Numbered from the stretch's first letter, positions 32,553-46,267 are shown. The stretch is 46,902 nt of DNA from Candidatus Omnitrophota bacterium (GCA_030649895.1 JAUSEX010000025.1:1-46902), one strand, 5' to 3'. Translations and numbers: made by a program. Notes: generated from the sequence alone by a model not told the origin.

Positions 32553-32626
32553 TGCCCTCTAGTGCAATGGTAGCACGGCTGGCTCTGGACCAGTTGATTG
32601 TGGTTCGAATCCACAGGGGGCAGCCA
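32553..32626 (+). tRNA. tRNA-Gln (anticodon CTG)
   Basis: Folded by hand. Acceptor TGCCCTC/GGGGGCA is followed by G and an encoded CCA. The D arm is GTGC/GCAC. The anticodon stem GCTGG/CCAGT encloses loop CTCTGGA with CTG at 32585-32587. The T arm TGTGG/CCACA encloses TTCGAAT. It lies 9 nt after the PilZ stop and probably shares the gltX transcript. Its 3' end is the attachment site of the island. Confidence 0.95.
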
Positions 32627-32846
32627 CAGTAATCTCTCGAATTCCAGATGGAGAGATAGTAGAGACCCTGATTAGCGATGCTAGTCAGGGTATTTTTTAT
32701 GTCGCGATGTGTCAAAGAGTTAGGGAAAATATTTTCGCACTGTCATTGCGAGGAGCACCGAAGGCGCAACGAAGCAATCTTTTTCGTTTAAAATAGCCGG
32801 ATAAATCTCGCTATCCTATCTCTTTATCTCCATATCGCGGTTTAGT
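32620..32846. repeat. Left copy of the 227-nt direct repeat (attL)
   Basis: It begins within the tRNA-Gln acceptor stem (GCAGCCA) and runs 227 nt. A gapless match occurs exactly 8,445 nt downstream at 41065-41291; I count about 37 mismatches, with only one in the first 39 nt. It contains a terminator (32665-32698) and a 'cattgcgaggag...cgaagcaatct' palindrome of a type often seen between genes in environmental genomes. Confidence 0.9.
32665..32698 (+). terminator. Rho-independent terminator after tRNA-Gln
   Basis: 12-bp stem (32665-32676 with 32680-32691, one T-G wobble), GAT loop, then ATTTTTT. It ends the gltX/pilZ/tRNA-Gln transcript. The right repeat copy has the same stem with compensating base changes. 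Confidence 0.85.
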
Positions 32847-32915
32847 AAAGGCGTCGTAGTAAATGATTATTAAGGGAGATTATCGCGAGATTATAGCGGA
32901 CTATTTTGGCATTTA

Positions 32916-34565
32916 CTAGGATAAGGCTTGTTCTTTGGCATTCTGCCAGATTATAGCCTGTTTATTCCAGTCAAATTGAGCGGCAAGAGAACGGATTTTG
33001 TATTCTGGAATGAGATCAATTGTTTGGTTATTACCAGTCAATATTTCTGTCTGAATAGCTGGAGAGAGAAGTAGTAAGGTTAAGATATGATCAAGGCGTG
33101 ATTGGCTCATGTTTAGCCATTCAGAGGCTTGTTTAAGGCTAGTTATTTTACCTTCATCAAAGAGTTTTTGTAGTTGGTGGGAGAGAATTAAATTTTTTCT
33201 GGCCTTTGGCTCCTTTTCGATCTCTATTTCTTTGTGCCACTTATTTAAAGGACGTACCTGTTTAAAATCTACGTCAAACTCAAGCCGTAGATCGCTGCCA
33301 TTAAGCGTAATCACAAGCTTTTTGTTAGTCGCGCTATAATCAACCTCTTTGACTAATGCCTTAAGAATACGCCGTTTTTCCTGGGGATAAAGTGTATCCC
33401 AGATAGGAGAGAGAAGGACTTCAATTTCCTGCTTATTTTTCTGATCGTTTTTCTTGTGATTATCGGAAAAGATTCTTTTTAAGCAATCAACAGTGGTATC
33501 TTCAATTGCCTGCGCATTGATGGATTTTGTGGGGCAAGAAACATACCCACGTTTCTGGGCATTTGAACAAACATAATAGCGATATTTATGAGTTTCGTTC
33601 TTTAATGTATAGGTATGAAACATAAAGGTTCCGCAGGCCTTGCAATGTAATAGATGACTTAAGAGCCCAGTGCAATCTGTATTCTTTGTGGCTTTTCGTT
33701 CCATGCGATTGTGTTTAAGAGTTTCTTGCGCTTTTTTAAATGTTTCTTCGTCTATAATTCCTTCCTGTTCACCTTCATAGATTTGGTCTTCATATCTTAT
33801 CTTACCAATATATAGAGGATTCTTAATCATTGATTGTATGTGGGTAATCCCGAACTTTTTACCGCCAAAGGTCTTTCCAGATTTAATAGTAATAGATTTA
33901 GACCTATAACCTTTATCATTAAGTATTTTAGCTACTTTTAGCAGAGAATTACCTTTTAAATAAAGATCAAAGATTTCTTTGATTAATTTTGCTTCAATCT
34001 TATTTATAATGAGTTTTTTATTTTCTTTGTCCAAATCATAACCTAAAGCAGCCCATCCTCCGGTCCATTGGCCTCTTTTACGCGCTGCGCTCATTTTGTC
34101 TTTGGTTCTCTCGGAGATTAACTGCCTTTCGAACTCGGCAAAGGAAGACAAAATATGTAGCATGAGTTTGCCTGTAGAAGTACTTGTATCGATTGGTTGA
34201 GTAATAGAGGCAAAGGCTACGTCGTGTTCTTCAAAAAACTTAAGGATCTGGACAAAATCAACGAGTGAACGGCTAAGGCGGTCTAATTTATAGACAACGA
34301 CCATATTAACTTTACCTTCCTTGATATCATTGATTAATTTCTGGAGAGAAGGGCGGTTTATATTTGATCCTGTGAATCCGTTATCGTCATATCTTTCAGA
34401 TAAAGCCACCCAACCTTCATGTTTATGGTTTGCGATGAAGCTTAGGATGGATTCGTGCTGGTTTTCAATAGATCCGAAAGTTTCATCTGCGCGTTCCTCT
34501 ATTGATTTACGACAATAAGCTGCGCAGTAGACTCGTTTCTTAGTTTGTTTTACCTCATTATCCAT
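32916..34565 (-). CDS. Large serine recombinase (site-specific integrase)
   Basis: I start at ATG 34565 (549 aa): AAGGA lies 6 nt before it and directly abuts the alternative ATG 34571. N-terminal resolvase domain with catalytic Ser21 in YCRKSIEE, then VVVYKLDRLSRSLVDFV, FASITQPIDTSTSTGKLMLHILSSFAEFERQLISERTK. The 'recombinase' domain follows (~175-290: GYDLDKENKKLIINKIEAKLI, LYIGKIRY), then a zinc ribbon (LHCKACGTF ... YYVCSNAQKRGYVSC). It lies ~290 nt inside the left end of the island and is the likely integrase. The C-terminal ~150 residues include an HTH-like WLNMSQSRLDHIL. Confidence 0.93.
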   Translation of the reverse strand: MDNEVKQTKKRVYCAAYCRKSIEERADETFGSIENQHESILSFIANHKHEGWVALSERYDDNGFTGSNINRPSLQKLINDIKEGKVNMVVVYKLDRLSRSLVDFVQILKFFEEHDVAFASITQPIDTSTSTGKLMLHILSSFAEFERQLISERTKDKMSAARKRGQWTGGWAALGYDLDKENKKLIINKIEAKLIKEIFDLYLKGNSLLKVAKILNDKGYRSKSITIKSGKTFGGKKFGITHIQSMIKNPLYIGKIRYEDQIYEGEQEGIIDEETFKKAQETLKHNRMERKATKNTDCTGLLSHLLHCKACGTFMFHTYTLKNETHKYRYYVCSNAQKRGYVSCPTKSINAQAIEDTTVDCLKRIFSDNHKKNDQKNKQEIEVLLSPIWDTLYPQEKRRILKALVKEVDYSATNKKLVITLNGSDLRLEFDVDFKQVRPLNKWHKEIEIEKEPKARKNLILSHQLQKLFDEGKITSLKQASEWLNMSQSRLDHILTLLLLSPAIQTEILTGNNQTIDLIPEYKIRSLAAQFDWNKQAIIWQNAKEQALS

Positions 34566-34574
34566 AGCCATTCC

Positions 34575-35045
34575 TTACAGGTTAAAGAATAAATAGCCGT
34601 TCCAATGCGCCCCAGTTACTTCTTTAGCAATGGCAGTTAGGCTTTTATAAGTCTTATTATTATATTCGAAGCCAGAATCTAGAGTTTTAACTTGAAGCTT
34701 GATGCCCTTATATTCCTTGGTAATCACGGTTCCTGGAATAGGAAGGCGTTTATCCCTGGAGAAGGTGCCTTTTTTACTGCGCTCAGGAAACGTGTTATCA
34801 GGGCGCAAAGCTTTATTATTTACCGGGTCATATTTCTGGATAAATTCTTCAATTTTACCCTGAGCTTCGGAAGAAAGCCCGCCATGCTCAAGTTCCTGGA
34901 TGCGATAGGCAATCTTGCGCCATAGGTATACCTTATTGTTAGATGGTGCTTTTTTGCCATCAAAGACCTCCTCGTATTTTTTCTCTAACTCGCCAAGCGA
35001 CAGCTCTTTTAATGCCATTATTTCGGTTATCGTATTATCGCCCAT
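34575..35045 (-). CDS. DUF2924 protein
   Basis: Start at ATG 35045 (156 aa) with AAAGGA 8 nt before it; in-frame codons upstream lack any signal. The N-terminal helical part (LSLGELEKKYEEVFDGKKAPSNNKVYLWRKIAYRIQELEHGGL) and the C-terminal part (RLPIPGTVITKEYKGIKLQVKTLDSGFEYNNKTYKSLTAIAKEVTGAHWNGYLFFNL) match the DUF2924 pattern. From memory this family sits next to serine recombinases in many elements. Here it lies upstream of the recombinase with 9 nt between genes, so they are cotranscribed; it may be a recombination accessory factor. Function is not established. Confidence 0.85.
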   Translation of the reverse strand: MGDNTITEIMALKELSLGELEKKYEEVFDGKKAPSNNKVYLWRKIAYRIQELEHGGLSSEAQGKIEEFIQKYDPVNNKALRPDNTFPERSKKGTFSRDKRLPIPGTVITKEYKGIKLQVKTLDSGFEYNNKTYKSLTAIAKEVTGAHWNGYLFFNL

Positions 35046-35137
35046 ATTTGGTGTCCTTTCGTCAGTACACATATAGCCATACAAGTTGGGATATATCAAG
35101 TAGAATAGAGAGGTATTTTTAGCTAGCTTGGTATACG

Positions 35138-35166
35138 TTGTTTTATAGTGAAAAATATGATATACT
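35138..35166 (+). promoter_or_regulatory. Promoter of the metal-efflux operon
   Basis: TTGTTT (35138-35143), exactly 17 nt, then TATACT (35161-35166). The predicted start of transcription coincides with the ATG at 35173, so the first gene would be read from a leaderless mRNA; no Shine-Dalgarno is seen before it. Confidence 0.55.
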
Positions 35167-35172
35167 TATTAC

Positions 35173-35427
35173 ATGAAGAAATTACTAGTATTAATTATTA
35201 TAGCTATATGTGCACTGCCTTCACTCGCGCCTTGTGATGCTTTGTCAGCAATGGACGATAACGAGCATTGTAATCCCGGTTGTAGTTTTAATTGTTGTAG
35301 TATCGCGCTACTACAGAGTATATCAATAAGTGCACCTTCTATTATTACCTTTAATACCTTTTCTATCAGTTACGTACCGCATCAAGAACCCTTCATTTCC
35401 GGCATCGAACGTCCTCCGAACTTCTAA
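35173..35427 (+). CDS. Small Cys-rich exported protein at the head of the metal-efflux operon
   Basis: 84 aa. A Sec-type signal (KKLLVLIIIAICALPSLAPCDA) is followed by EHCNPGCSFNCC (one His and four Cys within 11 residues), then a Ser/Ile-rich stretch and the C-terminal PHQEPFISGIERPPNF. I do not recognise a named family, but small exported proteins ending in a similar 'EPFxxGIxRPP' motif precede cation-efflux operons in other bacteria as I remember. The clustered Cys/His suggests periplasmic metal capture or sensing. The efflux genes follow on the same strand ~100 nt later. Confidence 0.65.
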   Translation: MKKLLVLIIIAICALPSLAPCDALSAMDDNEHCNPGCSFNCCSIALLQSISISAPSIITFNTFSISYVPHQEPFISGIERPPNF

Positions 35428-35524
35428 TTTAGCTCTCCGCTGGCATTTTTGATTCTACGAATTTGCGTCAGATATGCCATGTTTCTTTTTCTATCAATGC
35501 TTTACTCGAAGGAGCGATATTAAT

Positions 35525-36775
35525 ATGAAAATCAAAGTAAATATTTATGCTATTATATTTTTTCAGTGTCTTGTCCTTGGTTTTGCAAATGCCGGGGAAA
35601 ATCTTTCCTTAGATAAAGCGCTTATGGCTGCCTATGACAATAATCCCAGGATGATTGAAGCAAGAAAACTCGTTAACGTTGCCAAAGGGGATCTCATAAC
35701 CGCAAGAACGCTTCCTAATCCTGAAGTGGATTTTGAAATAGGCGGTTTGAAAGAGAATGAGAAAGGTAAGCGAAAAGGGGAATTAAATAATATCGCAGTA
35801 CGCCAGGATTTAGGGTTTCCTGGATCAAGGCTGTTTGATGGTAAAATCTCCAAAAATCAAGTTTTGTCTCAAGAAGAGTCATTTAAAACAGTATGGTCGG
35901 ATATATATTTAGAGGTAAGACAAATCTATGCGAAGATTATGTTGGATAAAAAGGGAATAGAGCTTGCGCAGGGGAATCTTGATATCTTAAGGAGCTTTTT
36001 TAGCCGCGTCCAGCTTCGTTTTCAATCAGGGCAAGCTCTCAAAAACGATGTCCAACGCGCCATGATAGAGCTCCTTAAGGCGGAAAATAGCTGTTTCATT
36101 GCCGAAAAAGAACTAAAAATAGATAAGGCAAAGTTAAACCTGCTCTTAGGCAGATCTTTTGATGTTTCTTTTGATATTGAAAGCGAGTTAAAAGAAGAGA
36201 GCGTTGAATTAAATTTTAAAGAACTAAGCGAAAAAGCTCTTTTGCTACGGCCTGATTTAAAAACAGAGAAATTGCAGCTCGATTCCGCTAACAAGAAGTT
36301 AATAAAAGAACAACTTAACCGCCTACCTGCCCCTTTTATAGGTTTTCAGAGAACAACAGAGGATTATGAAAATGATTCGGCGGTAGTTGTGGGGCTAAGC
36401 GTGCCTCTATGGAACCTTAACCAAGGGGAGGTAAAAAAAGCAAAGGCTCAAAAAGAAGCGCAGCAGGTAAGAGTGGATGCCGTTAAAAGAGAGGTTGTTT
36501 TTGAGGTCTATGAAGCGTATGCAGAAGCGGAACTGGCAGAAAAACAGCTTAATCTAGCTAAGAAATCCATAGAAGAAGCCAACGAGCTTTTACGCTTAGC
36601 AAATCTTCGTTATAGCGAAGGCGCTGTAGATTTTATAAATTACCTTGATCAAGTAAAAGCTGTTACGGAATCGCGAGTCGGTTATTACGAGTTTTTGTTT
36701 AAGCTTAATGATGCGGTGAGCAATATGGAAAAGACAATATACGAATCGCTGCGAGGGGAGGGGTATTTAAAATGA
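35525..36775 (+). CDS. Outer membrane factor of a metal efflux pump (TolC/CusC/CzcC family)
   Basis: Start at ATG 35525 (416 aa) behind AAGGAG; the in-frame codons from 35474 lack a signal. Signal peptide (NIYAIIFFQCLVLGFANA), then two TolC-type halves rich in helical heptads, with the recurring patterns LSLDKALMAAYDNNPRM, SEKALLLRPDLKTEKLQL, LSVPLWNLNQGEVKKAKAQ and LLRLANLRYSEGAVDFINYLDQV. It forms the outer-membrane channel of the tripartite pump with the two genes downstream. It overlaps the adaptor gene by 4 nt. Confidence 0.92.
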   Translation: MKIKVNIYAIIFFQCLVLGFANAGENLSLDKALMAAYDNNPRMIEARKLVNVAKGDLITARTLPNPEVDFEIGGLKENEKGKRKGELNNIAVRQDLGFPGSRLFDGKISKNQVLSQEESFKTVWSDIYLEVRQIYAKIMLDKKGIELAQGNLDILRSFFSRVQLRFQSGQALKNDVQRAMIELLKAENSCFIAEKELKIDKAKLNLLLGRSFDVSFDIESELKEESVELNFKELSEKALLLRPDLKTEKLQLDSANKKLIKEQLNRLPAPFIGFQRTTEDYENDSAVVVGLSVPLWNLNQGEVKKAKAQKEAQQVRVDAVKREVVFEVYEAYAEAELAEKQLNLAKKSIEEANELLRLANLRYSEGAVDFINYLDQVKAVTESRVGYYEFLFKLNDAVSNMEKTIYESLRGEGYLK

Positions 36776-37731
36776 AATACGCAAAGTTAATTACAGTAAT
36801 TATCATTTCCTTTGCGCTGGGAATAATCGTTTCACAAACGATTATTAAGCGCGAAAAAACGCTCACCCATTCTGAAAAGGAAGAAAACTGTCTTGAATGC
36901 GAAGACAAGATTAAATTAAGCCTGGCTTCCCAGAAGGCTATTGGCATTGAGACGATTGCGGCAAAACGCTCGCATTTTGTGGAGAAAATACCGGTTACGG
37001 GTAAAATCTCGCAGGATGCTGAAGAGATTGTCCATATAGTTCCTCCGGAAACGGGAGTCATTGTTGAGTGTAAGGTAAAAATGGGCGATTTGGTCAAAAA
37101 AGATGATACGCTTTGCGTCATAAAGCACAATGGTTCGGAAACGCTTATTGAGGTAAAGACTCCTATCGCAGGTGTAGTAATCTCTGATTTTGCAAAGGAA
37201 GGCGAAAAAGCCGATGCAGCATCAGCGCTTCATACTGTGGCAAATCTAACTACACTGCTGGCTGCTTTTGATGTCTATGAAAAGGATATCTCGCAGATAC
37301 TGTTAGGGCAGAAAATCATTATTCGTTCCGTCGCTTATCCGCAGGAAGCATTCGAAGGCGAAGTTACGTTTATTTCTCCGCGCGTTGACGAAGACACTCA
37401 TACCATTAAAATACGCGCAGCAGTGAAGAATCCGCACAATCTCCTTAAATTCGGGATGTTCGTGAACGCTGAAATAATGGCTGAGTCATCGGAAGAATTT
37501 ATCATTCTTCCGCAGGACGCTGTTCACCACTTATCAGGCAAACGGATAGTATTTGTTAAAGCCGGAGACAATGATTTTCAGGTTAGAGAAGTGGTTGTTA
37601 CAAAAGAATCCAAGGAAAGTGTTGCTATCGAAGATGGCATAAAAGAAGGGGAAATAGTAGTTACTAAAGACGGTTTTCTTCTCAAATCGGAATTATTAAA
37701 GGCAAAAATGGGTGAAGGATGCGCCGAATAA
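36772..37731 (+). CDS. RND efflux periplasmic adaptor (CusB/CzcB family)
   Basis: 319 aa. N-terminal anchor (LITVIIISFALGIIVSQTII), a short acidic/Cys stretch ENCLECEDKIKLS, then a membrane-fusion fold: biotinyl-lipoyl halves (VHIVPPETGVIVECKVKMGDLVKKDDTLCVI and IEVKTPIAGVVISDFAKEGEKAD) and beta barrel (FEGEVTFISPRVDEDTHTIKIRAAVKNPHNLLKFGMFVNAEI). It lacks a long helical hairpin, so it is a compact CzcB type. The CLEC pair is a possible extra metal ligand. ATGA overlap with the gene upstream. Confidence 0.92.
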   Translation: MKYAKLITVIIISFALGIIVSQTIIKREKTLTHSEKEENCLECEDKIKLSLASQKAIGIETIAAKRSHFVEKIPVTGKISQDAEEIVHIVPPETGVIVECKVKMGDLVKKDDTLCVIKHNGSETLIEVKTPIAGVVISDFAKEGEKADAASALHTVANLTTLLAAFDVYEKDISQILLGQKIIIRSVAYPQEAFEGEVTFISPRVDEDTHTIKIRAAVKNPHNLLKFGMFVNAEIMAESSEEFIILPQDAVHHLSGKRIVFVKAGDNDFQVREVVVTKESKESVAIEDGIKEGEIVVTKDGFLLKSELLKAKMGEGCAE

Positions 37732-37749
37732 TTATAAGGAGTTGATTAT

Positions 37750-40700
37750 ATGGACAAATTAGTAGCTTTTATTTTTAAGCAGCGAGCCTTAGTTATTTTT
37801 GCGACTCTGATTATAGGTGTTGCCGGGGTATTGGCGTGGATAAAACTTCCGATAGATGCGTTTCCGGACGTTACAAATGTTCAGACGATGATTTTAACTG
37901 AGGCCGCAGGATTGGCGCCATCTGAGGTAGAACGTTTAATTTCATACCCTATTGAAATTGAAATGCAGGGGTTGCCTCAGGTTAAGCTGGTGCGCTCGCT
38001 TTCAAAAGCAGGGCTTTCGCAGGTGGTGGTTATTTTTGAGGATAATGTTGATACGTATTTTGCCAGGCAGATTGTTTTTGAGCGGCTTTCTGTGGCAAAG
38101 GGGAATCTGCCTCCAGGGATTGAGCCGGAGCTTGGGCCTATCAGTACTGGATTAGGAGAAATATATCAGTATACGTTAGAGGCTTCTTTGAGCAAAACAA
38201 AATATGACCTTACGAGTTTACGGACTATGCAAGACTGGATTATTAAGCCGCAGATACGCTCTGTGTCAGGCGTAACGGAGGTAAACTCTTTTGGCGGGTT
38301 TGCGAAGCAGTATCAGGTAGTCGTTGATCCGGAGAAACTATCCAAATATAAAATTGCTCTCAGGGAAGTTGCTGAAGCATTAGAGAAGAATAATGCTTCA
38401 GCTCCGGCCAATTTTATTATCAAGGGGCGGGAGCAAATTATCGCAAGAAGCACAGGGCTTATTAAATCAATAGAAGATATTGAGAATATTATTGTGGCTA
38501 AGCGTGAGTCCTTTCCAGTCTATCTTAGAGATATCGCCTCAATACAAATAGGCCATCAAGTGCGCCAAGGCGCTGTGACGCGCGACGGGAAGGGAGAGGT
38601 TGTCTGTGGTATGGCTATTATGCTTAAGGGGGCAAACTCCAGAACAGTGATGGATCGCGTGAAAGTTAAGGTCGCCCAAATTCAGCGCCAGCTTCCAAAA
38701 GGTGTAAAGATCAACGCATTTTATGACCGCACCGAATTGATTCAGGCTTGCATAAAGACTATATCCAACGCCCTTATTCAGGGAGGGGCGCTGGTTATCG
38801 CAGTTCTTTTTTTGCTCTTGGGCTGCGTTCGGTTGAGCGCGATTGTATGTTTATCCCTACCCTTATCCGCACTCATTTGTTTTATCGCTATGAAAATGAC
38901 AGGGGTGTCGGCGAACCTTATGTCGCTTGGGGGATTGGCAGTGGCTCTGGGTATGGTTGTCGATGCTAATATTGTTGTCGGTGAGAATATTTTCCGGCAC
39001 TTATCCGAGAAAAAAACGCTGAAAGATAAAATAGGCGTTTGTTTTGAGTCGACAAAAGAGGTTGCCGCACCGATTTTATTTGCTGTTTTAATCATCATAG
39101 TAGTTTTTTTACCGCTCTTTAGTCTCCAGGCTGTAGAAGGAAAAATGTTTAAACCGCTGGCCTTAACGATTATATTCGCTATGTTTGGTTCGCTTCTTGT
39201 TGCTTTAACAGTTACGCCAGTCCTCTGTCTCTACTTTCTTAAGCCAGCCAAGATCAAAGAAGATAACTTTTGGATAAAGCAGGTAAAAAAGTTTTATTTG
39301 CCAATATTAGATAAAGTATTAAAACGTAAATATGCCGTCGCGATTATTTCAGTGATTATGTTTATTGCCGCAATAATAGGTTTTAAGTTTATAGGCACAG
39401 AATTCCTGCCGTATTTAGATGAAGGTTCAATAGTTATTAATATCGTTAAGTTTCCTACAGCTTCCTTAGAAGAGTCGAAGCATGTTGGCGAGCTAGCGGA
39501 AAAAATGCTTTTAGAATTTTCCGAGGTAAAAACAGTGGTTACAAAGACTGGCCGGGCTGAGATTGCGGAAGACCCTATGGGGCCGGAACAGAATGACGTT
39601 TTTATTATACTGAAACCCAAAAAATATTGGAAGGCGCGTTCTAAGCAGGAGTTAATCGAGCAGATAGACAAGAAGTTAAGCGTTATCCCTGGGATAAAAC
39701 TTAATTTTTCTCAGCCGATAGCTTTAAGGGTCAATGAGCTTATTTCAGGCGTAAAATCAGATGTAGCAGTAAAGATTTTCGGATATGACCTAGAGTTGTT
39801 AGGCGAGAAGGCAGAAGAGATAGAACATGTCATTTCCAGCATCAAGGGAGCAGCGGATGTGAAATTAGAGCAGATAGCCGGATTCCTTCAGCTTGATATA
39901 GAGATAGACCGCAAGGCTATTGCCAGGTATGGCATCAATGTCAGTGATATCAATGAAGTTGTGGAAATAGCTATCGGGGGGAAAGTTGCCACAACGCTCT
40001 TTGAAGAAGATAAGCGGTTTGGCATTTTGGTGAGATTTCCAGAGGAAAAGAGAGCGGATGAGAAGAGTATCGGCAATATACTGATCTCTTCTCCTTCCGG
40101 AGAGAAGATACCTCTGGCGCAATTGGCAAAAATTTCCATCAATGAAGTTCCTGCGCAAATAAGCCGTGAGAACGGAAGCCGAAGGGTGGTCGTTGAGTGT
40201 AATGTAAGGGGCAGAGATATTGGCAGTTTTGTTAAAGAGGCTAAGGAAAAGATAGCCAGCATAGAAAAAAATCTTCCTCCGGACTACTTTTTAATGTGGG
40301 GCGGCCAGTTTGAAAACCAGGAAAGAGCGATGAAGACGTTTACGGTTATTGTGCCGATTGTTATCTTGGTGATTTTCGTTATGCTTTTTTTGGCTTTTGG
40401 CTCATTCAGGCCGGCGCTTTTGGTTATTCTTAATTTACCATTTGCGCTTGTTGGGGGAATATTTTTTGTTCTGTTATTTAAAATAACGTTGAGTGTTTCA
40501 GCTGTTGTCGGATTCATCGCTCTTTTTGGAGCCGCGGTTGCGAATGGAATTGTTTTGGTTACATTTTTTTCTCAATTAAGGAAAGAAGGATTAGGGTTGA
40601 ATGAAGCAATTAAGAAAGGGTGTGAATTGCGATTAAGACCACTTCTTTTAACGACACTGACTACCATGTTTGGGTTAATTCCTCTTATATGGGCAAGCGG

Positions 40701-40827
40701 GCCGGGGGCAGAAATACAGAAGCCTTTAGCGGTTGTTATATTGGGCGGACTCATATCATCTTGGTGTCTTACCTTACTAGTTCTGCCTGCCCTATACGGC
40801 TGGTTCGAAAAAGAAGAGCTTAAATAA
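37750..40827 (+). CDS. Heavy-metal RND efflux pump (CzcA/CusA family)
   Basis: 1025 aa with the 12-helix RND layout and two large periplasmic loops. It starts IFKQRALVIFATLIIGVAG, has LPIDAFPDVTNVQ (HME family mark) near 35 and SLGGLAVALGMVVDANIVVGEN in helix 4 (~390-412). The helix keeps one Asp and the Glu but has Ala-Leu-Gly where Czc-type pumps have Asp-Phe-Gly. The pore loop reads TGRAEIAEDPMGPEQNDVFIILKP, closer to CzcA (divalent) than to CusA with its methionine. Substrate is therefore unresolved (Co/Zn/Cd/Ni or Cu/Ag). RBS TAAGGAG. It is the last gene of the operon. Confidence 0.94.
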   Translation: MDKLVAFIFKQRALVIFATLIIGVAGVLAWIKLPIDAFPDVTNVQTMILTEAAGLAPSEVERLISYPIEIEMQGLPQVKLVRSLSKAGLSQVVVIFEDNVDTYFARQIVFERLSVAKGNLPPGIEPELGPISTGLGEIYQYTLEASLSKTKYDLTSLRTMQDWIIKPQIRSVSGVTEVNSFGGFAKQYQVVVDPEKLSKYKIALREVAEALEKNNASAPANFIIKGREQIIARSTGLIKSIEDIENIIVAKRESFPVYLRDIASIQIGHQVRQGAVTRDGKGEVVCGMAIMLKGANSRTVMDRVKVKVAQIQRQLPKGVKINAFYDRTELIQACIKTISNALIQGGALVIAVLFLLLGCVRLSAIVCLSLPLSALICFIAMKMTGVSANLMSLGGLAVALGMVVDANIVVGENIFRHLSEKKTLKDKIGVCFESTKEVAAPILFAVLIIIVVFLPLFSLQAVEGKMFKPLALTIIFAMFGSLLVALTVTPVLCLYFLKPAKIKEDNFWIKQVKKFYLPILDKVLKRKYAVAIISVIMFIAAIIGFKFIGTEFLPYLDEGSIVINIVKFPTASLEESKHVGELAEKMLLEFSEVKTVVTKTGRAEIAEDPMGPEQNDVFIILKPKKYWKARSKQELIEQIDKKLSVIPGIKLNFSQPIALRVNELISGVKSDVAVKIFGYDLELLGEKAEEIEHVISSIKGAADVKLEQIAGFLQLDIEIDRKAIARYGINVSDINEVVEIAIGGKVATTLFEEDKRFGILVRFPEEKRADEKSIGNILISSPSGEKIPLAQLAKISINEVPAQISRENGSRRVVVECNVRGRDIGSFVKEAKEKIASIEKNLPPDYFLMWGGQFENQERAMKTFTVIVPIVILVIFVMLFLAFGSFRPALLVILNLPFALVGGIFFVLLFKITLSVSAVVGFIALFGAAVANGIVLVTFFSQLRKEGLGLNEAIKKGCELRLRPLLLTTLTTMFGLIPLIWASGPGAEIQKPLAVVILGGLISSWCLTLLVLPALYGWFEKEELK

Positions 40828-40988
40828 GAAGCACTTAATAAAGCTCATATATAGCAAATGTCCGGGTTCTTATATAAGACATTGTTTATCTCTTTATATA
40901 CCATAGGGTTAGAAATATTATAACCAAAAAATAGCGGACAAATTGGACAAATTCTAGCTATAACTTTATCTCTGATTTGCCAATTTTC
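40828..40988. other. AT-rich spacer at the island's right end
   Basis: No gene, tRNA or hairpin with a T-run is visible between the pump stop and the promoter at 40989. It reads as AT-rich spacer. Confidence 0.4.
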
Positions 40989-41017
40989 TTGATATTTGGC
41001 GTTATATGCTATACAAT
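40989..41017 (+). promoter_or_regulatory. Promoter facing the right repeat, with no ORF behind it
   Basis: TTGATA (40989-40994), 17 nt, TACAAT (41012-41017). The transcript would start near 41024 and hit the terminator at 41110-41143. Confidence 0.5.
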
Positions 41018-41023
41018 AGACGT

Positions 41024-41143
41024 GCTTGCGTTAAGAGATAGAGTTATAACGTACACAGCTTAGCGCAGCCACAGTAATCTCTCAAATTCCAGATGGAGAG
41101 ATAAAGATAACCCTGGTTAGCATTGCTGATCAGGGTATTTTTT
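41024..41143 (+). ncRNA. Candidate ~120-nt small RNA across the attR site
   Basis: Defined only by a good promoter (40989-41017) and a strong terminator (41110-41143) with no start codon/RBS pair between. The RNA would include the tRNA-Gln 3'-end mimic GCAGCCA. It could equally be a leftover toxin-antitoxin promoter firing into a terminator. Confidence 0.35.
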
Positions 41144-41291
41144 ATGTAGCGATGTGTCAAAGGGTTAGGGAAAATATTTGCGCACCGTCATTGCGAGGAA
41201 CGCCGAAGGCGTTACGAAGCAATCTTTTTTGTTTAAAATAGCCAAAAAAATCTCATCGAACCATCTCTTTATCTCTGAATCGGCATTTAGT
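41065..41291. repeat. Right copy of the 227-nt direct repeat (attR)
   Basis: Gapless match to 32620-32846 at an exact offset of 8,445 nt. It starts with GCAGCCACAGTAATCTCTC, 19 nt identical to the left copy and including the last 7 nt of tRNA-Gln, but no other part of a tRNA. Confidence 0.9.
41110..41143 (+). terminator. Rho-independent terminator in the right repeat
   Basis: 12-bp stem with ATT loop and ATTTTTT. Relative to the left copy, bases changed on both arms yet every pair is kept (two T-G wobbles). Confidence 0.8.
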
Positions 41292-41472: not shown

Positions 41473-41733
41473 ATGAAAGATATACGCTGGAGCCAGTTAA
41501 AGAGCGAGAGACTTAAAAGAATAAGAGGTGTTTCTTTCGAAGAGATTATCTCTTCGCAGTTAATCGCTGTTAAAAGCCATCCCAAAAGATCGGATCAAAA
41601 CATTATGCTCTTTAATCTTAAGGGCTATATTTGGATTGTTCCGTATGTTGAAGAAAAGGATTATATATTTTTAAAGACACTATACCCCAGTAGGAAGTTC
41701 ACGAAACTTTACAAAAAAGGAGAACTAAAATGA
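41473..41733 (+). CDS. BrnT-like toxin
   Basis: 86 aa. IRWSQLKSERLKRIRGVSFEEII near the start and IWIVPYVEEKDYIFLKTLYPSRKFTKLYKKGE near the end follow the BrnT/DUF4258-type RNase toxin pattern (a W...K/R...RGISFE...E helix, then a VPF/YVE...FLKTIxPSRK strand). It precedes and overlaps by 4 nt a CopG/BrnA-like antitoxin gene, the order known for this family. Likely an mRNA-cleaving toxin. It has no strong RBS; the promoter carries the operator described at 41421-41460. Confidence 0.8.
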   Translation: MKDIRWSQLKSERLKRIRGVSFEEIISSQLIAVKSHPKRSDQNIMLFNLKGYIWIVPYVEEKDYIFLKTLYPSRKFTKLYKKGELK

Positions 41734-41984
41734 GAAAGATTAACCTAACCAGACAAGAAAAAGCCATTGAAGATAGCCTTTTAAAAGGCGAATATATCAA
41801 CGTTAGTAAGACTAACTTCGCAGCTATTGCTGAAAGTATTGCTGCAAGAAAAAAAGACGCTGTTTTGAATGTCCGTGTAAATAGCCACGACCTGGCTACT
41901 ATTAAACAAAGGGCCCAGAAACTTGGGATTAAATACCAGACTTTTGTCTCCGAGGTTATACATAGGATTGCCCAGGCGCATTAA
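41730..41984 (+). CDS. Ribbon-helix-helix antitoxin (CopG/BrnA-like)
   Basis: 84 aa. The C-terminal half LNVRVNSHDLATIKQRAQKLGIKYQTFVSEVIHRIAQ is a ribbon-helix-helix DNA-binding domain; the N-terminal half (KAIEDSLLKGEYINVSKTNFAAIAESIAARKK) would wrap the toxin. The ATG overlaps the toxin stop by 4 nt and AAAGGAG precedes it, so it should be made in excess. It probably represses its own promoter at 41443-41460. Confidence 0.82.
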   Translation: MRKINLTRQEKAIEDSLLKGEYINVSKTNFAAIAESIAARKKDAVLNVRVNSHDLATIKQRAQKLGIKYQTFVSEVIHRIAQAH

Positions 41985-42188
41985 GAAGCGATAATAGAAA
42001 AAGTTCGAATCCAAGTAGCGATGCCGTAGAGATATAGTTATACGAATCTATCTCGGTCAGCCAATTTAATCACTTTGCCCAAAAAAGCAGGCATTACTTC
42101 TTTCCAATGCTAATTTCTTCTCAATCGCTTCAAAGATAAAAATTTCCTACGCTAGGCCGTAAAATCTTACGATTATACCTAGGTGCAA
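41985..42188. other. Gene-free AT-rich spacer
   Basis: I see no ORF with a start signal. There is an imperfect hairpin (GAGATA...TATCTC near 42030-42057) and an isolated GTTCGAATCC string resembling a tRNA T-loop near 42004, without the rest of a tRNA. Confidence 0.4.
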
Positions 42189-42217
42189 TTGATTCCCTTT
42201 TTGAATACCCCTATAAT
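42189..42217 (+). promoter_or_regulatory. Promoter for the small lipoprotein
   Basis: TTGATT (42189-42194), exactly 17 nt, TATAAT (42212-42217), leaving a ~77-nt leader before the ATG at 42301 with AAGGGAG as RBS. Confidence 0.7.
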
Positions 42218-42300
42218 AGCATTGTAAAGCTAGAGAAATTTTTTAGCGTTGCGCCGGATAACCGTTTTAATCGTTACGAACTTTAAGGGAGAAGTCTATA

Positions 42301-42534
42301 ATGAAAAAGCTAACAGGTATATTTCTTATGTTAATATTTTTGAGCGGCTGTATAATTACCGCATCTTCCGGTACGCGGACCGAGTATGAAGATAAAATGA
42401 AAATAATAGAGAAAGACTACAAAGAAAAGAAAATAACTAAGGAAGAGTATATCCAGCTTAAGAATCAAGCGAGTCAGGAGGGAGAAGTTGGCCAGGAAAA
42501 TGGCTCAACGGGTTCTGGTCAAAGATATCCTTAG
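42301..42534 (+). CDS. Small lipoprotein with SHOCT-like segment
   Basis: 77 aa. The lipobox LSGC puts the lipidated Cys at residue 17. The mature part has a short helix pair KIIEKDYKEKKITKEEYIQLKNQ that resembles SHOCT-type oligomerisation segments, then a Gly/Gln/Ser-rich tail. It has its own promoter and a clear RBS, so expression is probable. Function unknown. Confidence 0.65.
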   Translation: MKKLTGIFLMLIFLSGCIITASSGTRTEYEDKMKIIEKDYKEKKITKEEYIQLKNQASQEGEVGQENGSTGSGQRYP

Positions 42535-42677
42535 ACAGCACATCACTAATAAAAGCGATCTATTATACTTTGGTACAATAGACAAATTTTATCCTTCATG
42601 CTCTAATAGTATAAAGCATTTCTGAACTAAATTACCTGGGAGTTTTTCCTATATAACAGTATTCATTAAGGAGCTCT

Positions 42678-43067
42678 GTGATTTTGAAAAAGAATAAAGT
42701 TTATATTTTGGATGACGATGAGTCGGTTTGTCGCGCTATTAAGATTCTTTTAATGACTTTTGATTTTGAGGCAGAAACATTTAATTCTGCGAAAAGTTTC
42801 TTTGACGGCGTTTCTAATGATGATCATGGTTGCTTACTTCTCGACATTCATATGCCGGAATTTGACGGCTGGGCGGTGCAAAAAAGAATTATGGACTCTG
42901 GATCGAAACGCCCGGTTATTTTTATTTCTGCAGAGAACACAGACATTATCGAAAATCGTGTTTTGAAAACGGGGGCCGTGGGTTTCTTTCAAAAACCAAT
43001 TAATTACCAGAAGTTGGTCAATCTTATTAATACTGCGTCAGAAGATGCGTACGGTATGGTTAAATGA
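42678..43067 (+). CDS. FixJ-type receiver protein (no output domain)
   Basis: 129 aa, GTG start 4 nt after AAGGAG (TTG 42684 is possible). Receiver features: YILDDDESV (Asp12-14), phospho-acceptor Asp56 in LLLDIHMPEFDG, VIFISAE and the Lys in FFQKPIN near 103. The 'DDDESVCRAI' opening is typical of FixJ/NodW receivers, but it ends after the receiver domain with no LuxR HTH. It overlaps the following kinase gene by 4 nt, so the pair is coupled. Confidence 0.88.
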   Translation: MILKKNKVYILDDDESVCRAIKILLMTFDFEAETFNSAKSFFDGVSNDDHGCLLLDIHMPEFDGWAVQKRIMDSGSKRPVIFISAENTDIIENRVLKTGAVGFFQKPINYQKLVNLINTASEDAYGMVK

Positions 43068-44365
43068 AAACAATTGCCAAAGCAAATCAAGCGAAAGAGC
43101 CTCTGTTGAGAAAAGTAATCCATAACAACCTGGAAGAGCAGATCCGTCAGCTAACGGATGAGTTAGAAATTAGAAAAAGGCAATTAAAGCAAGGAGTCGA
43201 TAGAGAAAAGCTAGGAGCCGATAGGGAGAAGCAAGGGGCCGATAGGGAGAAACTCGCGGAAGAGCAAATATATATTCGAACCAAGGCTATGGAATCCACA
43301 GTGGATGGGATTTTTATTATCGATGCCACGAAGCCTGATTTCCTTATCATTTATGCCAATCCGGCTTTTTATAGTCTTACTGGGTATACAAAAAACGAAG
43401 TCATTGGAAAAAGTTATTTCTTACTTCATGGATTTGATGTCAACATGCGTGTCGCTGAAGAAATAAAACAAGCTCTGCGCCAAGGGAAATCTTTTAATGG
43501 AGAGATGCTAAACTCCAAAAAGAACGGCGAAAAGTTTTCGAGTTCACTTCGCATTGCTCCGGTACGCGATACAAATGGCGCCATCACTCATTATGTGGGG
43601 AGTAAAACCGATACTACATTGATGAAGCAGAGAGATTTAGAGCTTGAGGAGCAGCGCGAGGAGCTTTTGCATGTCACGAGGGTGGGAAAGCTCGCTGAAT
43701 TTGTTTCGTCTTTAGCGCATGAAATCAGCCAGCCCCTTACGGCCATTCTTGCTTATGCTCAAGCGGCTCAGCGGATGTTCGCAGACAGGGAGCCTAAACT
43801 GCAGGAAATCTTGCAGTACATTATTAGTGATGATCAGCGGGCCGCTGAGGTCATTCGGCGGCTACGGGCACTGTTAAAAAAGAACAAGCCCACATTCGAG
43901 TCTCTCGATATCAATGTCGTTATTAATGATACAGTTGCGCTTATTATGACGCATATCACTGTAAGGAATAAAGTTATTAAATTTGAATTGGATAAGGATC
44001 TCCCGCGCATCCAGGGTGATCGCATACAACTGCAACAGGTGCTCTTGAATCTTATCAGTAATAGTTTAGAAGCGATGGATGAGCGCAGTGATTCCCGTGA
44101 ACTGTTGATCAGGACATCGCGCAAAGATAACGACATTATCATGGTGGATGTAACGGATTCGGGATGCGGCATTTCAGCGGAAAATATGAACAAGCTCTTC
44201 TTCCATTTTTTTACCAGCAAGGCCGATGGTTTGGGTATGGGATTATCTATTAGCCGCTCCATTGTGGAGGATCATGGCGGTCATTTGGAGGCAAAGAATA
44301 ATTCTGATCGTGGCGCAACCTTTTATTTCACGCTTCCTGTTAATATGAAGAATGACCAGGAATAA
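43064..44365 (+). CDS. PAS-containing FixL-like histidine kinase
   Basis: 433 aa, cytosolic (no membrane helix). N-terminal coiled coil with near-exact 7-residue repeats (QGVDREK, LGADREK, QGADREK) at ~45-65, then a PAS domain ~75-190 (VDGIFIIDATKPDFLIIYANPAFYSLTGYTKNEVIGKSYF ... GEMLNSKKNGEKFSSSLRIAPV). HisKA follows with His219 in LAHEISQPL, N-box VLLNLISNSLEAM, G1 DSGCGI, G2 GLGMGLSISRSIVEDHGG. I see no haem-binding His environment I can confirm in the PAS. The cognate receiver is encoded just upstream. A near-duplicate transmitter lies in the kinase at 45281. Confidence 0.92.
   Translation: MKTIAKANQAKEPLLRKVIHNNLEEQIRQLTDELEIRKRQLKQGVDREKLGADREKQGADREKLAEEQIYIRTKAMESTVDGIFIIDATKPDFLIIYANPAFYSLTGYTKNEVIGKSYFLLHGFDVNMRVAEEIKQALRQGKSFNGEMLNSKKNGEKFSSSLRIAPVRDTNGAITHYVGSKTDTTLMKQRDLELEEQREELLHVTRVGKLAEFVSSLAHEISQPLTAILAYAQAAQRMFADREPKLQEILQYIISDDQRAAEVIRRLRALLKKNKPTFESLDINVVINDTVALIMTHITVRNKVIKFELDKDLPRIQGDRIQLQQVLLNLISNSLEAMDERSDSRELLIRTSRKDNDIIMVDVTDSGCGISAENMNKLFFHFFTSKADGLGMGLSISRSIVEDHGGHLEAKNNSDRGATFYFTLPVNMKNDQE
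43177..43256 (+). repeat. 21-nt tandem repeat in the kinase linker
   Basis: About three imperfect 21-nt units (ending in cgatagagaa, cgatagggag, cgatagggag) encode QGVDREK, LGADREK, QGADREK, a heptad coiled coil that may vary in length. Confidence 0.7.
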
Positions 44366-45280: not shown

Positions 45281-46267
45281 ATGATAAAGAAAAAACAATC
45301 CAAGCTCAAGCTAAAACCGCGGAAAAAGCTCTTATCGGGAAATAGAGTCCGAAACGGAAAGCGCGTGCGTCTTAAAGGATTAGTTGCTGGTTTACGTAAA
45401 GATCGCAGCTGTTTGAAACATAAAATTCAACAGCAAACCGATGAGTTGAAAGTAAAGAATGGGGAATTAAAAAATGGGGCAGAGAAGCAGATAAGGTCAG
45501 AAACGCAGATCCAGATAGATACTGCCTTAATACTGGAAAAAGATATAGAGATTATTAAGCAGCGCGAGGAGCTTTTGCATGTCACTAGGGTAGGAAAACT
45601 CGCAGAATTCGTTTCGTCCTTGGCTCATGAAATTAGCCAGCCTCTTGCGGCTATTCTTTCTTACGCTCAAGCTGCCCAACGGATGCTCTTAAACAGGGAA
45701 CCAGAAATACAGAAGATTCTTTCGTACATCGTTAATGATGATAAACGGGCGACCGAGGTCATTCAGCGATTGCGATCACTCTTAAAGAAAAGCGCACCTG
45801 AAATAAAACCGCTAGACATAAATGCCCTTATTAATGAAACTATTATGCTTATTGCTACTGATGCCGCTGTAAGAAGCAGTGTCATTAAAACTGAGTTGGA
45901 CACTAATCTTCCACTTGTCCGTGGCGATAAAATACAGCTGCAGCAGGTTCTTCTTAATCTTATTAGCAATAGTTTCGATGCCTTGGAGAGTAGTCAAAAT
46001 TCCAGAGAAATATTAATTTGCACATCGCGTAAAGATACGGACACTATTATCGTAGCGGTAAAGGATTCCGGATGCGGAATCCCTGCGCAAAATATGCCTA
46101 AGCTCTTCACTCATTTTTTTACGAGTAAACCAGATGGTTTGGGCATGGGGTTGTCTATCAGTCGTTCCATTGTTGAATCGCATGGTGGACGATTAGATGC
46201 AGAAAATAATCCTGATCGTGGCGCAACTTTTTATTTCACTCTTCCTATTGATATAAAGGATGTTTAA
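45281..46267 (+). CDS. FixL-like histidine kinase without a PAS domain
   Basis: 328 aa. A very basic N-terminus (KKKQSKLKLKPRKK) and a coiled coil (~45-95) replace the PAS of its neighbour. From ~92 on it is a near duplicate of the kinase at 43064: KQREELLHVTRVGKLAEFVSSLAHEISQPL, with His116, N-box VLLNLISNSFDAL, DSGCGI and GLGMGLSISRSIVESHGG. The stretch 'gcagcgcgaggagcttttgcatgtcac' is also shared at DNA level. A receiver gene begins at the next base after its stop but is broken after ~17 codons by an IS. No RBS is evident. Confidence 0.9.
   Translation: MIKKKQSKLKLKPRKKLLSGNRVRNGKRVRLKGLVAGLRKDRSCLKHKIQQQTDELKVKNGELKNGAEKQIRSETQIQIDTALILEKDIEIIKQREELLHVTRVGKLAEFVSSLAHEISQPLAAILSYAQAAQRMLLNREPEIQKILSYIVNDDKRATEVIQRLRSLLKKSAPEIKPLDINALINETIMLIATDAAVRSSVIKTELDTNLPLVRGDKIQLQQVLLNLISNSFDALESSQNSREILICTSRKDTDTIIVAVKDSGCGIPAQNMPKLFTHFFTSKPDGLGMGLSISRSIVESHGGRLDAENNPDRGATFYFTLPIDIKDV

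Follow-up and report, generated by a model that had tools for sequence, protein, structure and literature searches.

A probable tandem stack of integrative elements at a tRNA-Gln gene of an Omnitrophota bacterium, with a large serine recombinase paired to a DUF2924 protein

Staphylococcal cassette chromosome (SCC) elements insert behind a gene, at its 3′ end, leaving the gene intact, and form tandem stacks with attachment (att) repeats at the joints, in which some units lack ccr. The locus described here resembles them in several respects. It lies on a contig (C51) of the 1.68-Mb genome of a Candidatus Omnitrophota bacterium (GCA_030649895.1, JAUSEX010000025.1:1-46902), all 46,902 nucleotides of which were analysed (the window), and places a large serine recombinase (LSR) gene, its DUF2924 partner and a recombinase-less module behind a tRNA-Gln(CTG) gene. 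Stacking of recombinase-less, att-ended modules beside an integrase-bearing element is also described for cis-mobilisable elements (CIMEs) and integrative and conjugative elements (ICEs) at tRNA genes (PMC5704250), but those use tyrosine integrases, whereas the enzyme here is of the serine type and its element has no conjugation genes. The Islander definition restricts tDNA islands to tyrosine-family integrases (PMC4383910), and the present island falls outside it. Serine-recombinase insertion at a tRNA has been called rare, phiRSM1 and eight Mycobacterium actinomycete ICEs (AICEs) being the cases named (PMC3218068). The phiRSM filamentous phages, with an enzyme of the resolvase/invertase type, insert at tRNA-Ser (PMC4471427), the AICEs at tRNA-Leu (PMC3218068) and the Paracoccus phage Pami6 at tRNA-Met (PMC6536676); unlike the present case, none of these papers reports DUF2924 or a clade across many isoacceptors. 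A DUF2924-LSR pair occurs in the Acidithiobacillus phage AcaML1, whose attB is listed as "srrA" with a 10-bp direct repeat (PMC3826726); going only by the name in that table, we read this as ssrA, the transfer-messenger RNA (tmRNA) gene. The ends of the AcaML1 records (L363, L364) carry CCACCATTTA followed by a terminator, with a convergent LSR, and their right end includes a piece resembling a tRNA, much as here, although the host differs and extra small open reading frames (ORFs) lie between LSR and att. Serine-recombinase insertion at tRNA or tmRNA genes is thus rare but precedented, and in the open-licence literature DUF2924 itself is mentioned in just three papers, each of them on Wolbachia.

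We consider it probable that integrative elements have accumulated in tandem at the 3′ end of tRNA-Gln(CTG) in the window, through site-specific recombination by the LSR of the first of them, element 1 (32627-41071). The tRNA gene (32553-32626, + strand; ARAGORN, Rfam RF00005) encodes its CCA and would form the attB half-site; it is intact as it stands, contrary to a preliminary description of this DNA in which deletion of one repeat unit restores a perfect tRNA. The repeats themselves are as that description gave them. Alignment places the two 227-nt direct copies at 32620-32846 and 41065-41291, spaced by 8,445 nt, gapless and without indel, identical at 190 of 227 positions (83.7%) and with a single mismatch, at repeat position 20, in their first 39 nt; chance is far too weak to yield such a pair. 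To their left stand the tRNA body (first copy) and TACACAGCTTAGC (second copy), and because these are unrelated, the only tRNA sequence common to both copies is GCAGCCA (32620-32626, + strand), the putative att core. The other ~220 nt are not tRNA but a terminator-bearing left end, hereafter the tail. The earlier view that the repeat begins in the tRNA 3′ end and marks an att site thus survives for the 7 nt at the tRNA end and not for the remainder. Judged from the alignment, the repeats are a 7-nt core followed by homologous left ends rather than an att duplication.

Element 1 carries the LSR, DUF2924 and a CzcCBA-type metal efflux system. Its tail (32627-32846, + strand), behind the CCA, contains an inverted repeat (ATCTCTC, 32632-32638; GAGAGAT, 32652-32658) and then a hairpin resembling a rho-independent terminator (32665-32691) with a T run. 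The LSR (551 aa; 32916-34571, − strand) is convergent with tRNA-Gln, its stop lies 290 bp from the tRNA, and it is the only LSR in the genome. It has the domain order of a large serine recombinase, with PF00239 (Resolvase), PF07508 (Recombinase) and PF13408 (Zn-ribbon) over cut-off and a YCRKS motif. The DUF2924 gene beside it (34575-35027 or 35099, − strand; 150-174 aa; PF11149) likewise points toward the tRNA, and the preliminary description had already named both proteins inside the island; the DUF2924 fold prediction gave two confident domains, with no PDB match at E ≤ 0.001. The integrase gene adjoins a tRNA whose 3′ end is intact, and GCAGCCA stands at 32620 and again at 41065, which is the arrangement of a tDNA island. 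The best NCBIfam matches of the LSR are CcrB, CcrC and CcrA, at 138.9-190.8 bits against equivalog cut-offs of 700-900, which places it outside ccrA/B/C proper. SCC, moreover, targets rlmH, whereas here the target is a tRNA CCA end, the LSR has a DUF2924 partner and the ends contain a terminator and a promoter; by analogy, SCC or CIME stacking would be the work-alike of this stack. The right end of element 1, M1 (40988-41071, + strand), follows the pump gene and comprises an outward-pointing promoter (TTGATA, 40989-40994; 17-bp spacer; TACAAT, 41012-41017), a conserved leader AAGAGATAGAGTTATA and a GCAGCCA end.

By alignment with the first, the second repeat copy (41065-41291, + strand) is the GCAGCCA core plus the left end of element 2 (41072-~42064), with its own inverted repeat (41077-41083/41096-41102) and terminator-like hairpin (41110-41136). 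Element 2 closes in a right end of its own behind a BrnT/BrnA-like pair: M2 (41997-42064, + strand; GTTCGAATCC ... AGAGATATAGTTATA ... CAGCCA), which has a stretch resembling AGAGATATAGTTATA in common with M1, likewise terminates in CAGCCA, and is also found in the relatives G048, G005, G002 and G014. The array therefore reaches ~42064 rather than 41291, where the island had been thought to end, and the suggestion of two related elements in tandem with a common left end, as opposed to a simple duplication, is borne out. Between tail and M2 element 2 has only the BrnTA-like pair, with no recombinase or transfer genes, as expected of a CIME; going only by the changes in module order given below, it may be mobilised by the neighbouring element. 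The naming of the pair is weak. The 86-aa BrnT-like toxin candidate (41473-41733, + strand) is called so by size, position and partner only, and matched no Pfam, NCBIfam or toxin model; the 84-aa CopG/BrnA-like antitoxin (41730-41984, + strand) matched PF12441 just over cut-off and the BrnA model weakly (16.4 bits, cut-off 60).

Within the genus the order gltX-pilZ-tRNA-Gln is kept and the sequence behind the tRNA varies. The window reads tRNA-Gln, LSR-Czc, M1, brnTA, M2; G048 reads tRNA-Gln, tail, a transporter-gene module, M1, brnTA, M2, tail, LSR. The brnTA-M2 module stands directly behind tRNA-Gln in G005, a tail and LSR (72% identical) in G013, a tail not followed by any LSR over 10 kb in G011, and a second class of tail in G010 and G004. 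A search of relatives for the tRNA without the island, as had been proposed, turned up G006, in which the CCA of tRNA-Gln is fused to the homologue of window 42112 onward (42112-42384) and both modules are absent; apart from 47 nt (42065-42111), this is the site without the insert. All 15 full-length tails begin exactly after a CCA, that of tRNA-Gln in six, of M1 in five, of M2 in two and of other CCA ends in two. Between the window and G048 the LSR end is 98.7% and brnTA 93.4% identical, whereas gltX and pilZ of those contigs reach only 81-82%, suggesting that the modules, being more alike than the surrounding chromosome, moved horizontally. Variable module order, high module identity and CCA-bound tails are consistent with repeated site-specific gain and accretion, not with duplication.

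The association of such LSRs with tRNA genes extends across the phylum. A PF11149 search of 285 Omnitrophota genomes found DUF2924 in 44, and each LSR gene followed by 600 bp or more past its stop codon was scored for a convergent tRNA 3′ end at −130 to +500 bp. Of the 40 LSRs paired with DUF2924, 25 have such an end (His 6, Gln 6, Lys 3, Asn 3, Ser 3, Glu 2, Leu 1, Asp 1), as do 11 of the 34 that lack this partner, with no co-oriented case in either set; of 452 further ORFs at these loci, all 200 aa or longer, 5 were convergent and 35 co-oriented (Fisher P ~1e-29, a significance inflated by related sequences). The presence of different isotypes on different branches argues for many separate events, and the LSR-to-tRNA distance is near constant, at 240-410 bp convergent, across many isotypes. 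Most of the 11 LSRs lacking DUF2924 (L161, L167, L171, L175, L179, L186, L190, L191, L193, L197, L200; Asn, Ser, Gln, Arg, Pro, His) overlap the tRNA 3′ end antisense with their own 3′ coding end, by 11-86 nt. On the tree the LSRs paired with DUF2924 group in a single clade (43 rows, support 100), and tRNA isotype changes 12 times on the LSR tree against 21 expected from shuffles, none of 300 shuffles being as low. The window LSR clusters with elements at tRNA-Gln and tRNA-Asn, tRNAs that end in AGCCA or ACCA. In the tRNA-Lys group, G066, G107 and G076, which have an LSR beside tRNA-Lys, have a tail in common, missing from relatives with no such LSR at that position, and the tRNA-His elements L126 and L141 share the right-end plan, with 53-54 nt from the -10 box to the CCA end. 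The far end was located by tRNA-suffix matching for the window and L141 only, L126 being added by a promoter-pattern search; comparison with relatives lacking the LSR revealed no Lys-type right end within 16 kb. Of 66 viral DUF2924 loci, 57 have an adjacent LSR and a single one has a tRNA close to the LSR; they are no control for tRNA proximity, since a free phage genome does not contain the tRNA of its host. Nor does a tRNA lie near any of four plasmid-borne loci.

The repeats might instead be a segmental duplication or a dispersed repeat, with the LSR an unrelated neighbour. A dispersed repeat of 40 nt does lie inside the 227-nt repeat (GTCATTGCGAGG...GAAGCAATCT, 32741-32780, with many partial matches), and fragments resembling the tail turn up at other places of the genome (G000:C45, C7). 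The preliminary description held that occurrence of the 227-nt end in many unrelated places would speak for such a repeat; the short inner piece is indeed dispersed, but the full-length tails elsewhere are always at a CCA end. Because duplication would not put full-length copies at CCA ends alone, this explanation is largely refuted for the left end, and with several tail copies at junctions with M1 or M2 right ends that are conserved in other genomes, and LSR-tRNA convergence far above the control, we regard it as very unlikely.

It is marginally less improbable, though still very unlikely, that a tyrosine integrase, lost or encoded elsewhere, made the insertion in the classical tDNA manner and that the LSR is cargo. 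Transfer RNA 3′ ends are the classic target of that family (PMC4383910), but no tyrosine recombinase was found in the island and the genome has only two, of ~295 aa and XerC/D size; the near-constant convergent placement of the LSR over many isotypes, and an LSR tree that tracks isotype, also point to the LSR. The modules might also form an integron-like cassette array with M1 and M2 as attC-like sites. Toxin-antitoxin cassettes are typical of integrons, and the junctions here share one orientation and come right after the last gene of a module. Yet no integron-type integrase is near, the genome has only the two tyrosine recombinases of XerC/D size and the island none, the junction falls at the tRNA CCA with no GTTRRRY-type junction at the CCA joints, and M1 copies are spaced up to 20 kb apart (G008:C122); the stack thus falls outside integrons, and we regard such an array as extremely unlikely.

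Several observations weigh against a stack built by the LSR at the tRNA. The tRNA-Gln allele of the window is foreign to the genus, for which the model offers no account. The G006 site differs by the 47 nt noted above, and no attB/attL/attR trio comes from a single species. As many as 15 of 40 DUF2924-paired LSRs have no tRNA within 500 bp, seven of these having one at 610-1546 bp, and right ends for other isotypes were mostly not found within the 14-16 kb examined. M1 copies also adjoin tRNA-Leu(GAG), and all sequences are contigs of metagenome-assembled genomes, often ending at these very repeats.

If the stack was nevertheless built by the LSR, as we think probable, attP would be the right end M1 (...GCAGCCA) joined to the left-end tail and attB the tRNA (...GCAGCCA) joined to the flank. 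The LSR would recombine the two at the tRNA CCA end, leaving the tRNA whole, CCA included, and would presumably catalyse excision as well, with DUF2924 probably as its accessory factor. The tail would take over from the tRNA's own terminator, so that transcription would end at a new one immediately past the tRNA, and the right end would bring a strong outward promoter, which in some relatives is the one closest to the gene that follows, tRNA-Leu(GAG). M1-type right ends lie 5′ of this tRNA in five genomes (L236:10939-11130, L243:23-223, L251:6337-6497, L249:130-464, L084:4505-4839), within 30 bp in three. Because M1 stops 22-30 bp before it in G006 and G008 and runs straight into it in G018, M1 is its nearest promoter in these three. 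Element 2, with the same kind of ends and no recombinase, would behave as a cis-mobilisable, CIME-like module, and the DUF2924-paired clade would have shifted between isoacceptors.

Two other readings of M1 were rejected. As an independent tRNA-like RNA it would rely on an acceptor-like pairing seen by eye (TGCGTTA/TAGCGCA), which several copies do not keep, and the fold computed from the alignment mainly supports the tail hairpin and terminator instead; in an Rfam scan of the window the tRNA was the sole match, M1 and M2 matching no known RNA family. As a mere tRNA-Leu promoter, M1 has a promoter half that resembles native tRNA-Leu(GAG) promoters of the genus, but its 35-nt leader and CCA junction do not.

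The cargo of element 1 consists of an outer membrane efflux protein (CzcC/TolC-like, PF02321; 35474-36775), a membrane fusion protein (CzcB/CusB-like, PF16576; 36772-37731) and a CusA/CzcA heavy-metal RND (resistance-nodulation-division) efflux pump (TIGR00914, 1169.7 bits, cut-off 701; 37750-40827), preceded by a small ORF of 84 aa containing Cys and His (35173-35427; no family match), all on the + strand. The 32741-32780 piece is a palindrome-like repeat of ~40 nt (GTCATTGCGAGGAGC...GAAGCAATCT) scattered through genomes of the class. The tRNA-Gln(CTG) allele (TGCCCTC...GGGGGCAGCCA) differs from the TGGAGGA...TCCTCCAGCCA of every congener read at the locus; the neighbouring gltX and pilZ are native, and the genome nowhere has the allele of the congeners. 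An ORF for a LAGLIDADG-like endonuclease lies between pilZ and tRNA-Gln in G008 (L067:147-719) and G048 (L059:1058-1630), and G002 has the same upstream sequence beside its tRNA-Gln. The tRNA-Gln(TTG) of the window's own genome has a partial tail ~70 nt downstream, with no LSR there (L063:7651-7862, G000:C45), and in G073 two tail copies ~200 nt apart follow tRNA-Lys and match the end of the same genome's LSR contig (L377:1-360, C8). Beyond the array, a response-regulator/histidine-kinase block (42550-44365) is 97.9% identical to G005:C25, where it stands behind an M1 site; with gltX only 83% identical to that of G005, this block may also have moved. Two diverged direct copies (73-77%) of a histidine-kinase region lie at 43610-44354 and 45518-46262, 1,908 nt apart.

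In conclusion, an LSR clade that spans a phylum, is associated with tRNA genes and has stacked modules devoid of recombinase seems, within the open-licence literature, to be a previously undescribed variation on a known theme. We tentatively propose, as a possibility falling somewhat short of probable, that DUF2924-partnered LSRs make up a lineage of integrases dedicated to tDNA and tmRNA genes and able to switch from one isoacceptor to another, whose terminator and outward-promoter ends would keep the split tRNA operon expressed and at whose sites related recombinase-less modules would pile up. A phylum-wide, phylogenetically coherent set of LSRs at the 3′ ends of tRNAs of at least eight isotypes runs counter to the rule to which earlier papers supplied scattered exceptions. 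The set provides a natural series in which to study target switching by serine integrases, together with enzyme candidates for a conserved landing site; the terminator and promoter borne by the ends provide a testable account of how insertions may spare tRNA operons.

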